Origin: a virus
Strand: one strand, 5' to 3'
Length of the DNA stretch: 64,000 nt
Virus record (IMG/VR): IMGVR_UViG_3300044618_002471
Coordinates: 33,967-97,966 of that record
The notes below the pieces were generated by a model that saw only the letters and a program-made list of their open reading frames with translations, was not told the DNA's origin and ran no database searches. Below are positions 58,491 to 64,000 of this stretch, one piece after another (the stretch's first letter is position 1; each line of letters starts with the position of its first letter). The position numbers and the translations under genes are program-made.

Positions 58491-58816
58491 TTCTCAACAA
58501 TAAAATATTAAATAAACTTATAAACTCGGATTATATCAAAAAGATATATCCGATGATTGACCGTATTGATACAAGAATGTTTTGGGATGGTGATGAAGAA
58601 CTTCCATTTTACGACATTGAATTGGAAGTACATTTAAATGACCCTGACATAACAACTTTCAATATGTATGAAAAAGGGTTTGACCCACATAATTTAATTA
58701 ATGAACATATGATGTTCATACTTAAAATGGCGGGAATTGATAAGAATACGTCAATAATAGAACAAGTTTATATTAAGGTATTAGGCCCTGACGGAGAAAA
58801 AATATTCACGTATTAA
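58487..58816 (+). CDS. Protein of unknown function
   Basis: A 109-residue protein (MILNNKILNKLINSDYIKKIYPMI), alpha/beta, acidic. No family was recognised. It overlaps the tagged gene by 4 nt and converges with the tandem array, overlapping its first member by 4 nt. Confidence 0.5.
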   Translation: MILNNKILNKLINSDYIKKIYPMIDRIDTRMFWDGDEELPFYDIELEVHLNDPDITTFNMYEKGFDPHNLINEHMMFILKMAGIDKNTSIIEQVYIKVLGPDGEKIFTY

Positions 58817-59175
58817 TATACTGGTGTGTTTCTTCTTTTAGGGTATACTGATATCTCATCGATATCAACCTCAAACTTCTCACTAAACCAATCGGCAACA
58901 ATATCAACAACCTTTGATTCTCTGATATTAATTAATTGTCTTAAAGTATCGACAATATCGGGATGGATATGTAACATACCAACACCATAATGAGGACTAT
59001 CGTCATCAGATACACCAGGTCCGTAATAAAAATACTTAATATTATTAAGTTCTAATCTGTAAGCGTCGGGATTATGCGGGTTAACTTCCTTTTTAGGTGT
59101 TATATCCTCAAACATACTATCCAAATATTTGTAGACAATATTATGAAGTTGAGTTTGTGTTATTATATATCTCAT
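58813..59175 (-). CDS. Tandem family, diverged member 1
   Basis: A 120-residue protein beginning MRYIITQTQLHNIVYKYLDS, clearly related to the array consensus at the start (I-T-Q replaces I-T-E). The middle is tyrosine-rich (NIKYFYYGPGVSDDDSPHYG), like the outlying copy at 51404. The C-terminal part (LRQLINIRESKVVDIVADW) matches the family's FFS...W segment loosely. It has no late-type element and starts 1 nt after the stop of the upstream member. Confidence 0.6.
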   Translation of the reverse strand: MRYIITQTQLHNIVYKYLDSMFEDITPKKEVNPHNPDAYRLELNNIKYFYYGPGVSDDDSPHYGVGMLHIHPDIVDTLRQLINIRESKVVDIVADWFSEKFEVDIDEISVYPKRRNTPVY

Positions 59176-59176
59176 A

Positions 59177-59482
59177 TTATGTCAACGAGTTTATTATTAA
59201 ATGATATTCTTCTTTTAAGTAACGAGCCATCATGTCTGAAAATAAGCCTATCCCAATGTCAAATATTTCCCACTCATTACCAAAATATTCTCCATTGAAA
59301 TAGTAATTATTGTCATCTTCATAATTAGCAGTACCGACTAATAACTCACCATCACTACCAAATAATCCTTTCCATTCTTCACCCCCATAATCTCGTATAC
59401 CCAATTTTGAATTCTTGAATCTTGAATCAAAAAACGGTTTCATTAGTCTGTAAAGTTGTTCTTGGTTTAAAAGGTATTCCAT
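59177..59482 (-). CDS. Tandem family, diverged member 2
   Basis: A 101-residue protein beginning MEYLLNQEQLYRLMKPFFDSRF. The tag has L-N-Q before E-Q-L. The core (NYYFNGEYFGNEWEIFDIGIGLF) is aromatic and acidic. It is one of the most diverged members, placed by its start, size and position. Its own late-type element lies 4 nt upstream. Confidence 0.5.
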   Translation of the reverse strand: MEYLLNQEQLYRLMKPFFDSRFKNSKLGIRDYGGEEWKGLFGSDGELLVGTANYEDDNNYYFNGEYFGNEWEIFDIGIGLFSDMMARYLKEEYHLIINSLT

Positions 59483-59486
59483 ATCG

Positions 59487-59495
59487 TATAAATAT
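59487..59495 (-). promoter_or_regulatory. Late-type ATATTTATA element
   Basis: The coding strand reads ATATTTATA 4 nt before the ATG at 59482. Confidence 0.5.
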
Positions 59496-59812
59496 TAACC
59501 AGCACCGTAATCTGAGGAGGGGTACTTAATTTCAATACCTATTTTATTTCCAACCCAATCGGAAATTATATTCAAAGATGTATACAAATCTAGAGAAAAG
59601 AATTCCGCAACTTCGGTTAGAATATCTGAACTTATAAAACAATCTTCACTCATGAAAAAATACGCAATTTTTGCATATTGATTGTCTTTATAACTACGTT
59701 CAGATTCAAAGAAATAATGACCTCCACCATCTTCACGATGATAAAAGTCCTGAGCATCAAGATAGTCAAATATGATATTGTCAAGCTGTGATTCGGTGAT
59801 TAGATATTTCAT
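59495..59812 (-). CDS. Tandem family member (MKYLITESQLDN)
   Basis: A 105-residue protein with the full tag MKYLITESQLDNIIFDYLDAQDF. It continues with the family core: an aromatic strand (GHYFFESERS), YAKIAYFF, a strand plus LTEVAEFFSLDL and SDWVGNKIG. Relatives 60202-62581 share the same order. It starts 1 nt after the stop of the next upstream gene. Confidence 0.7.
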   Translation of the reverse strand: MKYLITESQLDNIIFDYLDAQDFYHREDGGGHYFFESERSYKDNQYAKIAYFFMSEDCFISSDILTEVAEFFSLDLYTSLNIISDWVGNKIGIEIKYPSSDYGAG

Positions 59813-59813
59813 A

Positions 59814-60197
59814 TTAAGAGATATTAGCGTTTCTCACATCAAATACTTTATATTCGGGGAACACAACATTAAAGGCGTCTGACATTAAATATTTACCGTG
59901 AACGTACCAAAAAGGATGGGGAAGTATCTTTTCAAAAAAGTCACCAAATTCTCTACTATAATATAATTCACCTGTCATACCATCCTCATATATAACAAAA
60001 ACACATATTGTTCCACCATTAGAATTGGATATGAAAATTCTATTATTTTCATTATCATATGAATCAAATTGGTCAACAATGTAAGGAATAATTTTATCCT
60101 TTATCTTATTATATTGTTCCTCATATTCAAAATCTCTCCAATCCCTTTCAAGTTCGGAGATAAGTTTTAGTTGTGATTCTTTGATTATATATTTCAT
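59814..60197 (-). CDS. Tagged protein inside the tandem array, different body
   Basis: About 127 residues from ATG 60197, beginning MKYIIKESQLKLISELERD. Only the tag and next few residues match the array. The body (IVDQFDSYDNENNRIFIS, LMSDAFNVVFPEYKVF) is unrelated to the family core. This is good evidence that the tag can sit on different proteins. The upstream in-frame ATG at 60218 is rejected because the tag would be internal. Confidence 0.6.
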   Translation of the reverse strand: MKYIIKESQLKLISELERDWRDFEYEEQYNKIKDKIIPYIVDQFDSYDNENNRIFISNSNGGTICVFVIYEDGMTGELYYSREFGDFFEKILPHPFWYVHGKYLMSDAFNVVFPEYKVFDVRNANIS

Positions 60198-60201
60198 GTT
60201 C

Positions 60202-60513
60202 TTAAAAATAATATACAACTATATCTGATTGGACATCAACCGCTCCGTAATGTGTTCCAGTTTTACTCTCAACCCACTTAGAAATTGCGGAAATGGAGTC
60301 AATATTACTTAAAGAAAAGAAAGAGGCAATTTCGTCCATTAATTTTCTATCAATCGTACACCAATAACTATTGAATTTAATCTGAGCATATTCATCTTTC
60401 TCTGAATTAAGGAAATAACCGTTTATTCCATACTCCATATAAACAAAATCCTGATTATCCAAGTACTTAAAGATTACTTTATCAATCTGAGATTCGGTTA
60501 TTAGGTATTTCAT
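60202..60513 (-). CDS. Tandem family member (MKYLITESQIDK)
   Basis: A 103-residue member: tag MKYLITESQIDKVIFKYLD, then NQDFVYMEYG, an NSEKDEYAQIKF strand, LMDEIASFFSLSN and ISKWVESKTG. The family core is conserved throughout. A late-type element lies 5 nt upstream. Confidence 0.7.
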   Translation of the reverse strand: MKYLITESQIDKVIFKYLDNQDFVYMEYGINGYFLNSEKDEYAQIKFNSYWCTIDRKLMDEIASFFSLSNIDSISAISKWVESKTGTHYGAVDVQSDIVVYYF

Positions 60514-60518
60514 ATGAT

Positions 60519-60527
60519 TATAAATAT
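60519..60527 (-). promoter_or_regulatory. Late-type ATATTTATA element
   Basis: ATATTTATA on the coding strand, 5 nt before the ATG at 60513, between two array members. Confidence 0.5.
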
Positions 60528-60537
60528 TAATTACTAT

Positions 60538-60843
60538 CTATCTAATTATAATTTCTTTAACTCTTCTACCCAAAGTATTTTCAACCCATCTGGCGATAAC
60601 ATATTTAGAACTATCAAATTCCATAGAGAAGAATTCAGCAATCTCATCAATTAACTCAAAACTCATAACACACTCACCACCACTTCTATAGTGTTGGATT
60701 AATCCGCCCGAAAATTCATCATTTTCTGAATTAACGAAGTAAGTTATATTATCACCAGCCATTCTCTTAATAATAAAGTCCTGATTATCCAAATACTTAA
60801 AGATAACCTTGTCAATTTGTGATTCGGTGATTAGATATTTCAT
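60538..60843 (-). CDS. Tandem family member (MKYLITESQIDK)
   Basis: A 101-residue member. The first 23 residues are nearly identical to those of the neighbour at 60202. The core has YFVNSENDEF, CVMSFELIDEIAEFFSMEF and IARWVENTLGRRV. It differs from neighbours mainly in the strand after the tag. Confidence 0.7.
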   Translation of the reverse strand: MKYLITESQIDKVIFKYLDNQDFIIKRMAGDNITYFVNSENDEFSGGLIQHYRSGGECVMSFELIDEIAEFFSMEFDSSKYVIARWVENTLGRRVKEIIIR

Positions 60844-60848
60844 ATGAT

Positions 60849-60857
60849 TATAAATAT
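60849..60857 (-). promoter_or_regulatory. Late-type ATATTTATA element
   Basis: ATATTTATA on the coding strand, 5 nt before the ATG at 60843. Confidence 0.5.
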
Positions 60858-60866
60858 AAGGTATTA

Positions 60867-61184
60867 CTATCTAACGTGTACTTCCTTAACTCTTTCATCC
60901 AAAGTATGTTCAACCCATCTACCAATAACATATTTTGAATCATTAAAGTCCATAGAGAAGAATTTGGCGACCTCATCAATCAATTCAAAATTTATAAAAC
61001 ACTCTCCATCTCTATAGAAATTAATTATTGAGTCGGTTCGTAAGTCACTTTCAGAATTAAGAAAGTGAATTATATTGCTAACCCCAAAAGAAGTTTTAAC
61101 TGATTTTCTTATAATAAAGTCCTGATTATCAAGGTACTTAAAAACAACATTATCAAGTTTAGATTCGGTGATAAGATATTTCAT
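60867..61184 (-). CDS. Tandem family member (MKYLITESKLDN)
   Basis: A 105-residue member with tag MKYLITESKLDNVVFKYLD. Its closest relative is the neighbour at 60538: both have INFELIDEVAKFFSMDF-type and WVE.TL..RVKE endings. A recent local duplication is likely. Confidence 0.7.
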   Translation of the reverse strand: MKYLITESKLDNVVFKYLDNQDFIIRKSVKTSFGVSNIIHFLNSESDLRTDSIINFYRDGECFINFELIDEVAKFFSMDFNDSKYVIGRWVEHTLDERVKEVHVR

Positions 61185-61188
61185 ATGA

Positions 61189-61197
61189 TATAAATAT
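61189..61197 (-). promoter_or_regulatory. Late-type ATATTTATA element
   Basis: ATATTTATA on the coding strand, 4 nt before the ATG at 61184, touching the stop of the upstream member. Confidence 0.5.
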
Positions 61198-61526
61198 TAG
61201 TTAGGAGTTCTTAAAGAAGAAACCATATCTTCAGTGACAAAGAATATGTTGGTAACCTTCATTTTTAAAGTATTTTCAACCCACTTACCAATAACTTTTT
61301 TAGAATTAGATTCTCTCAGAGAAAAGAAGGAAGAAATTTCGTTAACTAATTTATAAGATATAAAACACCACTCATCATTTTCATCATATCTAATCTGAGC
61401 ATATTCATCACTTTCGGAATTAACAAAAAATAAACTAATACTATCGCCGACCACGACAAAGTCCTGATTATCCAAATACTTAAATATTACATTATCAATC
61501 TGTGATTCGGTGATAAGATATTTCAT
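61197..61526 (-). CDS. Tandem family member (MKYLITESQIDN)
   Basis: A 109-residue member: FFVNSESDEYAQIRYDEND, CFISYKLVNEISSFFSL, IGKWVENTLKMKVTN. It shares with the copies at 61539 and 62249 a strand with YAQI[RK]YD and a C-terminal [LM][KQE]MKVTN-type end, forming a second subgroup. Confidence 0.7.
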   Translation of the reverse strand: MKYLITESQIDNVIFKYLDNQDFVVVGDSISLFFVNSESDEYAQIRYDENDEWCFISYKLVNEISSFFSLRESNSKKVIGKWVENTLKMKVTNIFFVTEDMVSSLRTPN

Positions 61527-61530
61527 ATGA

Positions 61531-61539
61531 TATAAATAT
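61531..61539 (-). promoter_or_regulatory. Late-type ATATTTATA element
   Basis: ATATTTATA on the coding strand, 4 nt before the ATG at 61526. Its first base belongs to the stop codon of the upstream member. Confidence 0.5.
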
Positions 61540-61874
61540 TAATTATAATAGGGTATTCTCAACGCAAACCACTTCGTGTTGTTGCGCCATTCGGTGTTTG
61601 TGACCTTCATTTGTAGTCTATTTTCAACCCATCTACCTATAACTGGTTCAGAATCATAATGTGACATAGAAAAGAAGGTGGAAATTTCTTCAATTAATTT
61701 ATAATGTACATAACACCAATTATCATTTTTATCATATTTAATTTGAGCGTATACATCATTCACTGAGTTCACGAAGTATATTTTTTCATCAAAGTTAATC
61801 TGAATAAAATCTTGGTTATCCAAATACTTAAAAACAACATTATCAAGTTTAGATTCGGTGATAAGATATTTCAT
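61539..61874 (-). CDS. Tandem family member (MKYLITESKLDN)
   Basis: A 111-residue member: IYFVNSVNDVYAQIKYDKND, YVHYKLIEEISTFFSM, IGRWVENRLQMKVTN, then an FALRIPYYN tail shared with the copy at 62249. It overlaps the upstream member by 4 nt, and the upstream element is degenerate (TATAACTAT on the plus strand, 61880-61888). It may be translated from the upstream transcript. Confidence 0.7.
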   Translation of the reverse strand: MKYLITESKLDNVVFKYLDNQDFIQINFDEKIYFVNSVNDVYAQIKYDKNDNWCYVHYKLIEEISTFFSMSHYDSEPVIGRWVENRLQMKVTNTEWRNNTKWFALRIPYYN

Positions 61875-62236
61875 TCGGTTATAACTATTAATCTGTGATA
61901 GTTGTTAGCATCTCCGGCGTTTTCAATTCTACCAACTTTAATACTCAAAGTATTACTAACCCACACTCTGATTATGTCCAAAGAATCTAATTTATCAATG
62001 GAGAAGAAGTCACATAACTCCTCAATCAAATCATAATTTACATACACCCAATTCTTAACTTCACCAATGGCGTCGTTTACATAAACACTAATCTGTGACA
62101 TCCCATCCGACTCACTATTTAAGAAATATATATAATTGTTTTTTTTCTTCTTGTTGTTATATATCACAAAGTCCTGATTATCCAAGTACTGAAGGATAAC
62201 ACTGTCCAATTTAGATTCGGTGATTAAGTATTTCAT
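61871..62236 (-). CDS. Tandem family member (MKYLITESKLDS)
   Basis: A 121-residue member, the longest of the core set, with a KKKK insertion after the tag region and YFLNSESDGMSQI, VNYDLIEELCDFFSIDKLDS and RVWVSNTLSIKVG. It is conserved at the same core positions as the rest. Confidence 0.7.
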   Translation of the reverse strand: MKYLITESKLDSVILQYLDNQDFVIYNNKKKKNNYIYFLNSESDGMSQISVYVNDAIGEVKNWVYVNYDLIEELCDFFSIDKLDSLDIIRVWVSNTLSIKVGRIENAGDANNYHRLIVITE

Positions 62237-62240
62237 ATGA

Positions 62241-62249
62241 TATAAATAT
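62241..62249 (-). promoter_or_regulatory. Late-type ATATTTATA element
   Basis: ATATTTATA on the coding strand, 4 nt before the ATG at 62236. Confidence 0.5.
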
Positions 62250-62581
62250 TAATTATACCATGGCATTCTCAAAGCCATAAAATTGTCCAAAACAAAACCA
62301 AATCTTTTGACCTCCATGTTTATTGAATTCTCAATCCATTTAACAATAATTTTCTCAGATTCAGAATTTTGTAATGAAAAGAAGGCAGAAATTTCAGTTA
62401 ATAAATCGTAAGATATATAACACTTTCCATCATTTTTATCATATCTAATTTGAGCATATTCATCATCCTTTGAGTTCATGAAGTATATGTTTTTAGGAGC
62501 GTTAATCTGAATAAAATCTTGGTTATCCAAATACATGGTTGCAAGCTTATCGATTTGTGATTCTGTTATTAGATATTTCAT
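62249..62581 (-). CDS. Tandem family member (MKYLITESQIDK), first of the array
   Basis: About 110 residues from ATG 62581. It has the full tag, IYFMNSKDDEYAQIRYDKND, ISYDLLTEISAFFSL, IVKWIENSINMEVK and an ALRMPWYN tail. An open frame extends 41 codons upstream, but that stretch is low-complexity, lies upstream of the late-type element and lacks family similarity, so it is not included. Confidence 0.7.
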   Translation of the reverse strand: MKYLITESQIDKLATMYLDNQDFIQINAPKNIYFMNSKDDEYAQIRYDKNDGKCYISYDLLTEISAFFSLQNSESEKIIVKWIENSINMEVKRFGFVLDNFMALRMPWYN

Positions 62582-62585
62582 ATGA

Positions 62586-62594
62586 TATAAATAT
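62586..62594 (-). promoter_or_regulatory. Late-type ATATTTATA element heading the array
   Basis: ATATTTATA on the coding strand, 4 nt before the ATG at 62581. Confidence 0.5.
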
Positions 62595-62666
62595 AATAAT
62601 GCAACAAAATATCCACCTTTACTTAACGGGGGGAATTTATTATAATTAAAATAAAAATATATACAA

Positions 62667-63296
62667 ATGAATATAATCGAATCGTTGCAGTGGAGATACG
62701 CCACAAAGAAAATGAATGGGGAGAAAATCCCACAGGATAAATTAGATAGAATATTAGAGGCAACAAGACTGGCCCCGAGTTCATACGGACTAACACCATA
62801 TAATGTAATCGTGGTGGAGAACCAAGAACTAAAGGAACAACTTGTTTCAGCATGTTATGGTCAGACACAACTGGCAGATTCATCAGCGGTATTAGTATTT
62901 GCAACATGGGACACAATCAATGAAGAATCGGTGGATAAGTATATGAATGAAATTACCACCCAAAGAAACATCGGTATGGATATGTTAGCCGACTTCAATG
63001 GTATGGTTAAAGGAACACTCTCATATATGAATGAAGAACAGAAAACCACATGGGCTCAGAAACAAACATATATAGGTTTAGGTTTCGCATTAGTAACGGC
63101 AGCACTCGAAGAAGTAGACTCAACTCCAATGGAGGGATTCGTTCCAGCACAAGTAGATGAAATATTAGGTCTTAAAGAGTTAGGTCTAAAGTCATCCGTA
63201 CTTCTTACATTAGGATATAGAGATTCAGACAATGATTACCTATCGTCAATGAAGAAAGTAAGATGGGATAATGAGATGTTCTTTATTAGAAAATAA
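62667..63296 (+). CDS. Nitroreductase-family NAD(P)H:FMN oxidoreductase
   Basis: A 209-residue protein. It matches the nitroreductase/NfsB type: SLQWRYATKKMNGEKIP at the start, the FMN-binding RLAPSSYGLTPYNVIVV, WAQKQTYIGLGFALVTAAL and the C-terminal GYRDSDNDYLSSMKKVRW. It reduces flavins or nitro/quinone compounds with NAD(P)H. Phages rarely carry it, so it may be an acquired host metabolic gene. Codon use (more GGA, CTC and ATC) appears different from the adjacent array. A terminator follows closely. Confidence 0.88.
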   Translation: MNIIESLQWRYATKKMNGEKIPQDKLDRILEATRLAPSSYGLTPYNVIVVENQELKEQLVSACYGQTQLADSSAVLVFATWDTINEESVDKYMNEITTQRNIGMDMLADFNGMVKGTLSYMNEEQKTTWAQKQTYIGLGFALVTAALEEVDSTPMEGFVPAQVDEILGLKELGLKSSVLLTLGYRDSDNDYLSSMKKVRWDNEMFFIRK

Positions 63297-63320
63297 TATA
63301 ATATACTCACTCACTACAAT

Positions 63321-63346
63321 GGGGACTCCTAAAGGGTCCCCTTTTT
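63321..63346 (+). terminator. Rho-independent terminator after the nitroreductase gene
   Basis: GGGGAC pairs with GTCCCC around a CC-TAAA-GG apical stem, followed by TTTTT. Confidence 0.85.
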
Positions 63347-63381
63347 CGTTCATTCGTACATTATATTATTTCCCCCCATTT

Positions 63382-63406
63382 ATGTAAGGTCCCCCACTAA
63401 CGAAGG
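63382..63406 (+). repeat. ATGTAAGGT...ACGAAGG element, copy 1
   Basis: ATGTAAGGT, 9 nt, then ACGAAGG. The second copy is at 63628-63650 with 7 nt between the same blocks. Confidence 0.6.
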
Positions 63407-63627
63407 ACACAATGTATAGGACATTTTTATACCCGTTAAGGTATAATATGTGAGATGTATAAGAATATATACCCTATCGGGTATTGTTTTATACTATATG
63501 GTATTATACTAATGAGTATAATTTTGGTGTGTGATTATGGGGGAGACAACAGGTCATCTATGACCACGACTTCTCCCACATTTTCTTAACCTAAAGGTTA
63601 AGTTTTACCACACATACTATTGTCCAT

Positions 63628-63650
63628 ATGTAAGGTGTCTATTACGAAGG
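63628..63650 (+). repeat. ATGTAAGGT...ACGAAGG element, copy 2
   Basis: ATGTAAGGT, 7 nt, then ACGAAGG, 246 bp downstream of copy 1. The variable segments of the two copies are partly complementary to each other (TCCCC with GGGGA, GACAC with GTGTC). Confidence 0.6.
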
Positions 63651-63802
63651 GGAATATAATACCCCACTAAAGTGGTCTCGTTGAAGGTCTATTTAGTCAG
63701 TCTCCTAACACACTACGTGTTCAACCGCTGTATGGGGATTAATAGACATTTTTTGCTGGGTTTTATCCATAGTAAAAAAAATAGTGTTCCTGACTACTAC
63801 AG

Positions 63803-63821
63803 AGGGGAAAAATCCCCTTTC
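63803..63821 (+). terminator. Terminator-like hairpin
   Basis: AGGGGA pairs with TCCCCT around AAAA, followed by TTTCTT. It could end a transcript from the upstream hairpin region. Confidence 0.6.
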
Positions 63822-63841
63822 TTATACCCTACATGACCATT

Positions 63842-63900
63842 AGTGGTGGTAAATTGTGGTAAGACATGGTGGTAAAAGGTGGGAGAAAAGTGGTGAAGGG
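63842..63900 (+). repeat. G-rich GTGGT repeats
   Basis: Five to six GTGGT/GGTGG blocks separated by A-rich spacers, roughly one per 10-13 nt, all on the plus strand. The pattern could be iterons or a two-layer G-quadruplex former. Confidence 0.55.
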
Positions 63901-63979
63901 GATTATCCCCATCTTAACGTTCACCTGACATTTTGACAAAATCAAGTTTTTTAACACATTTAACAATAAAAAAATGGAC

Positions 63980-63994
63980 CTGACACACTGTCAG
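63980..63994 (+). repeat. Perfect 6-bp hairpin at the window end
   Basis: CTGACA and TGTCAG separated by CAC. Confidence 0.6.
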
Positions 63995-64000
63995 TCCCCA

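Follow-up and report, generated by a model that had tools for sequence, protein, structure and literature searches.

The 64,000-nucleotide stretch analyzed here (the window; bases 33967-97966 of a 97,966-bp IMG/VR record) very probably carries, on its + strand, a member of a new family of large structured RNAs found in huge phages. The element is conserved among relatives, shows compensatory changes with a + strand sense, is present as a single copy per genome and has a near-constant linkage to one downstream gene, ORFd. The RNA occupies ~530 nt (63398-63925), is ~82-84% conserved in four related loci (L004-L007) and is kept in ~50 elements; its 5' boundary is approximate, having been set by inspection of alignments at the point where conservation starts, and its length in relatives is roughly 500-700 nt. 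A first-pass annotation of this DNA had proposed a candidate structured RNA at 63347-63760. That observation was correct but understated: the region is real but was drawn too small, as conservation extends from ~63398 through a motif at 63926-63946.

Genomic setting of the element

The window ends where the contig ends, which places the hairpin-rich stretch at a contig terminus. On its 5' side lies a nitroreductase gene (62667-63296) that is closed, as judged by inspection, by a terminator-like hairpin and T-run (63319-63345). The contig stops before the next gene, which in nearly all relatives is ORFd. The same contig codes for a DnaB-like helicase, a UvsX-like recombinase, ribonucleotide reductase and baseplate proteins, while no tRNA was found in the window and the Bacteroidetes TAnnTTTG promoter showed no enrichment upstream. 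Further 5', the minus strand of the window holds a tandem array of small genes (58813-62704; ~100-150 aa each) with similar N-termini, an expanded gene family whose start-site DNA is repeated (TTCATATGATATAAATATTA on the + strand) and whose kin (cluster 0) are often upstream of the element in relatives. In one related locus (L003, 11370-13964), the phage structural region encodes a large protein with a SprB repeat, which typifies the gliding adhesins of Bacteroidetes.

The element is conserved in huge phages

We reached 18 related loci via the neighboring nitroreductase; the stretch was conserved beside this gene, or a few kilobases off, in 12 of them, and the motif was located elsewhere on the contig in 2 more. 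In the close relatives L004 (6777-7325) and L005-L007, a GIY-YIG-endonuclease-like gene with a helix-turn-helix (recognized by eye) separates the nitroreductase from the RNA; given its absence from the window, the site looks like an insertion point for mobile genes. A wider search probed with the most conserved piece, GACATTTTGWCAAAAWCAAG, returned 40 and then 71 viral contigs, corresponding to ~50 distinct IMG/VR elements once duplicates and two or three off-pattern matches were dropped. Among the latter, L071 looks coding and L057 is without ORFd. The sole motif match in a bacterial genome (L092) was attributed to chance, since the stretch looks coding and is without the RNA. No convincing RNA or ORFd was detected in 50,697 GenBank phages searched by both DNA and protein.

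Element-bearing contigs reach 326 kb. With up to 2 mismatches allowed, each of 9 records searched has the motif once, except for one weak second match in G003, and genomes searched whole carry one copy of the RNA each. Large element-bearing records are 270-330 kb in size with a G+C content near 31-34%, and 7 of 9 sampled records encode bS21. These three characteristics match the sampled records to the lake huge phages described by Chen et al. 2022 (PMC9723584), which infect Bacteroidetes and encode bS21, and, as judged from them, the majority of the sampled carriers belong to this group. According to a text search, neither non-coding nor intergenic sequence is mentioned in that publication.

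Architecture of the RNA

All RNA features described below are on the + strand. The nested junction recognized in the first-pass annotation spans 63528-63614: TGTGTG (63528-63533) pairs with CACACA (63609-63614) and encloses both the pairing of GGGAGA (63541-63546) with TCTCCC (63572-63577) and the hairpins at 63552-63565 and 63585-63602. Equally present is the 9-bp pairing between TGTCTATTA (63636-63644) and TAATAGACA (63740-63748), in place of which L016 has a different complementary pair (TGTAAG/CTTACA). This helix encloses hairpin 1 (CCAC-TAAA-GTGG, 63664-63675), which lies just 5' of CGTTGAAG (63679-63686), and hairpin 2 (AACAC-ACTAC-GTGTT, 63707-63721), and is followed by helix P3 (63749-63758 with 63770-63779), whose loop contains a conserved CTGG. 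A long-range helix within 63571-63887 consists of two halves, TTCTCCCAC (63571-63579) with GTGGGAGAA (63879-63887) and TTTTACCAC (63603-63611) with GTGGTAAAA (63869-63877), and is a consensus helix in a divergent group. The RNA core ends 3' with GGGGATTATCCCC (63898-63910), in place of which another clade has GATTGTGTGGTG along with matching upstream changes (by eye).

As had been claimed, no open frame explains this region; the sole overlapping frame is a 54-aa GTG ORF (63672-63836), and frame-breaking indels occur between relatives. Folding of 63300-64000 is well beyond that of dinucleotide shuffles (z -4.0; 0 of 20 as good), with the inner stretch of 281 bases (63480-63760) being less extreme (z -2.1; 6 of 200 dinucleotide shuffles as good). 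The reverse strand of 63300-64000 also folds well (z -4.35, dinucleotide shuffles), so that folding energy alone cannot tell the strand, while G-U pairs can.

Helices are maintained by compensatory changes

The covariation that the first-pass annotation called for was found in hairpins 1 and 2 and in P3. Hairpin 1, before CGTTGAAG, is formed by more than 10 different complementary stems among homologues. For hairpin 2, about six stems (AACAC/GUGUU, GUCC/GGAC, GACA/UGUC, ACC/GGU, ACAC/GUGU and ACA/UGU) occur at a constant distance from the motif (-213 to -217), the loop is kept as UAAA, UAAC or ACUAC, and double changes were counted in alignments. In P3, 86.8% of cells are paired and 20 are double-changed, a score that was matched by none of 500 shuffles and that lies above every slid version of the helix; two helices including P3, taken together, reach 90.6% in one clade. 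U-A/A-U, C-G/A-U and C-G/G-C swaps are all observed among relatives, and distances are nearly fixed, with the CTGG loop located ~173 nt 5' of the motif in most elements. Importantly, P3 cells contain 48 G-U pairs vs 5 C-A pairs, indicating that it is the + strand that pairs and favoring RNA over double-stranded DNA.

Sequences of that same clade alone, with the window's clade left out, were used to build a covariance model (R1), which matches the window's contig, searched whole, at a single place, 63704-63794 (44.3 bits, E 7.7e-7 in 1.13 Mb). In 12 of 14 records R1 has a single match per genome, and it also picks up divergent members in which the motif is absent or altered, such as L163. RNAalifold applied to one global sequence alignment found little, a weakness that is due to helices shifting between clades; what worked was to align clade by clade, to parse hairpins one at a time and to use one covariance model. 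Clade signal swamped the raw mutual information, and intermolecular duplex folding was too permissive. Of the options put forward initially, that of a large phage RNA is supported by the compensatory changes, by a covariance model that recovers the window and by the + strand G-U pairs.

Hairpins with UAAA or UAAC tetraloops are also found throughout these genomes at 30-40 sites per genome, including the nitroreductase terminator, and within the elements they lie at -213 to -272 from the motif, as if the lineage favored this loop as a stable tetraloop.

ORFd is the near-constant downstream neighbor

Across shuffled neighborhoods the RNA is found on the same strand as, and directly 5' of, ORFd, while its upstream neighbors come from more than 20 families; the exception is L069, where the RNA core is present and no ORFd adjoins it. 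A search starting from the ORFd protein alone, using an alignment of a subset because the alignment of all ORFd sequences was too diverse, showed that nearly all loci whose upstream sequence is long enough have the RNA and/or the motif ahead of ORFd, the exceptions being L162 and L177. Three contigs of one group, and L153 as well, have an HNH endonuclease gene between the RNA and ORFd; the order RNA, inserted HNH-endonuclease gene and then ORFd is that of L153 and L169, which suggests homing into a conserved locus. The stop and start codons overlap at these HNH-endonuclease-like genes (584-1204 in both L169 and L153). By inspection, no strong terminator hairpin with a T-run was seen between the RNA and ORFd.

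ORFd is a protein of ~100 aa that is mostly acidic (median pI 5.5) and, judged by that composition, is not a typical RNA-binding protein. It has no significant match in Pfam or PHROG. Its predicted structure is a compact bbbb-aa fold (four strands and two helices; pLDDT 87.6), for which Foldseek returned PC4/Sub1, PURA and ssRNA-phage coat proteins only at E near 1 and a comparison with BFVD gave nothing below 1e-3. PDB sequence matches to viral haemagglutinin (E about 0.05-0.8) were judged to be chance.

Candidate DNA sites lie between the RNA and ORFd

The gap between the RNA and ORFd is 56-190 nt and contains the motif, an A+T-rich tail and dyads. In the window the near-invariant motif TGACATTTTGWCAAAAWCAAG (63926-63946, + strand), of which the TGACATTYTGWCA part is the most conserved, is followed in the A+T-rich tail by a DnaA-box-like site, TTTTTAACA (63948-63956, + strand), and by a second dyad, TGACA-CAC-TGTCA (63981-63993, no strand assigned); a further dyad of the form TGACA-n3-TGTCA is often present in relatives. 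Sites matching TTWTNNACA lie just 3' of the motif in one orientation, and 57 of 59 elements have one within +20 to +90 of it, where about 0.04 would be expected for each. A search of four contigs gave 3-9 pairs of the form TGWCA-n3-TGWCA in each, 2-4 of which are located at the element, and TGWCA density has its genome maximum at the element in two of three large genomes and a tied maximum in the third. By sequence, the motif, boxes and dyads look like DNA sites. The RNA and the motif are separable, given that L163 (G012:C1:126848-126940) has lost the TGACATTTTGWCA motif and kept the RNA core and ORFd.

Two mutually exclusive pairings

The pyrimidine strand at 63571-63611 has either a local partner, in the junction, or a distant one (63869-63887). 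Since the junction and the long-range helix share pyrimidine strands, they are mutually exclusive. The local pairing, of the CCC strand with an upstream GGG strand, is present in 20 of the 34 elements considered (3.3 expected), and the distal partner has its two halves in the right order in 19 of them (0.2 expected); the 34 are the elements with a recognizable pyrimidine strand (~15 of 49 are without one), and, coming from related phages, they are not independent samples. These mutually exclusive folds suggest a possible switch, an idea based on complementarity only.

Possible functions of the RNA

In the explanation that we prefer, the RNA would be transcribed as the 5' portion of the ORFd transcript and would act in cis. 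Its pyrimidine strand (UCCCAC..UUUACCAC) would pair either locally upstream or with a purine strand (GUGGUAAA..GUGGGA) ~260-300 nt downstream, the two folds would determine whether RNA polymerase, or translation, proceeds into ORFd, and a protein bound to the conserved dyad TGACATTYTGWCA between the RNA and the gene would couple the RNA to control of the locus. Taken as a whole, we consider this explanation to fall just short of an even prospect. Its central part, a cis-acting leader or switch of ORFd that is possibly two-state, is a tentative assignment that we would not yet call probable. Arguing for it are the strict linkage to ORFd on one strand, the alternative pairings, the acidity of ORFd and the fact that no evident terminator precedes this gene. 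On the other hand, usual leaders are far smaller than this RNA, a simple leader has no need of DNA-like features such as the dyads and TTWTNNACA boxes, and L069 has the RNA core without a neighboring ORFd.

A rival explanation is an RNA-primed replication origin, in which a G-rich structured transcript would invade the A+T-rich tail with the help of proteins bound to the TGWCA dyads and DnaA-box-like sites. Such an origin was among the options initially raised, and the DnaA-box-like sites and TGWCA dyads do adjoin the RNA; the TTWTNNACA boxes in one orientation (57/59 elements), the TGWCA density, highest or tied for highest here in three large genomes, the single copy per genome and the A+T-rich tail all fit it. 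Yet in three large contigs the GC skew has no switch at the element and follows gene direction (a weak test, as skew tracks the coding strand), one Bacteroidales genome checked for the host DnaA site had no TTATYAACA cluster above control, and L163 dispensed with the motif and retained both RNA and ORFd. We regard an origin as rather unlikely. Also unlikely is a free-standing RNA that functions in an RNA-protein particle, similar to OLE RNA and OapA, with ORFd as a possible partner. The size and number of helices resemble those of large ornate RNAs, the RNA is constantly paired with one protein family, and ORFd is predicted to be compact; against this, the protein is mostly acidic, and no RNA-binding protein resembles it structurally at a significant level.

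Two further alternatives carry far less weight. A packaging (pac) site, or another DNA-level structure for virion assembly, was also proposed in the first-pass annotation and would be consistent with a hairpin-rich, single-copy element neighbored by dyads that resemble protein-binding sites. It is very unlikely, considering that the element is ~72-109 kb from the bS21 gene, which Chen et al. place beside terL (PMC9723584), that no terminase genes flank it, and that G-U rather than C-A pairs indicate RNA. The possibility that hairpins and terminators have clustered by chance, with no joint function, is close to negligible: single hairpins are unremarkable, UAAA-loop hairpins being common elsewhere (30-40 copies in each genome), but the covariation already contradicts this reading, and features that keep their order and spacing (in most elements CTGG is ~173 nt 5' of the motif) and one model match per genome also speak against it. 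Finally, the RNA could belong to a new class of large phage RNAs and, jointly with protein-binding dyads and initiator-like boxes, constitute a control center for RNA-dependent replication or takeover in bS21-encoding huge phages, a broader proposal that we consider unlikely.

Comparison with known structured RNAs

Few large structured RNAs of unknown function have been described, and this element adds one that is single copy in genomes searched whole, is tied to one novel protein and occurs across a widely distributed group of uncultured huge phages. If the RNA does control replication or form an RNA-protein particle, it would represent a new use of RNA by very large phages. Direct testing is feasible, since the locus is short enough for cloning and metatranscriptomes of these phages are published (Chen et al. 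2022, PMC9723584).

No Rfam family reached its gathering score in the window, and none matched four representatives (L001, L008, L013 and L016) at E<=1; judged by covariance-model match, the element does not belong to GOLLD, ROOL, OLE or another family in Rfam 15. No earlier description of this RNA family was found in the open literature, though an unpublished or closed-access one is possible.

GOLLD is a large ornate RNA whose discovery drew partly on lake DNA and on phages, and ROOL is a phage-associated large structured RNA. The element resembles the former in being a large RNA from a lake and phage setting, and the latter in being phage-linked and of similar length; it differs from both in having no Rfam match, and from GOLLD also in that the window is without a tRNA. 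The GOLLD name is expanded, and ROOL is covered, in PMC12286853. OLE is ~600 nt, highly structured and beside one conserved small protein gene, an arrangement much like that seen here. OapA is a membrane protein, whereas ORFd is soluble-looking and mostly acidic, and there is no sequence match. A further likeness is that bS21, reported in the OLE particle (PMC12054373), is also encoded by the element's phages.

ColE1 RNA II and the T4 origin transcripts prime replication and, like the putative transcript of the element, are structured or G-rich and next to an A+T-rich region, but GC skew at the element gives no support to this parallel. Riboswitch-type leaders share the same-strand position just upstream of one gene and the alternative pairings, but the element is several times larger and has dyads and DnaA-box-like sites before the gene. 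We class the element as a new family among the large ornate RNAs, with an unusual set of neighbors.
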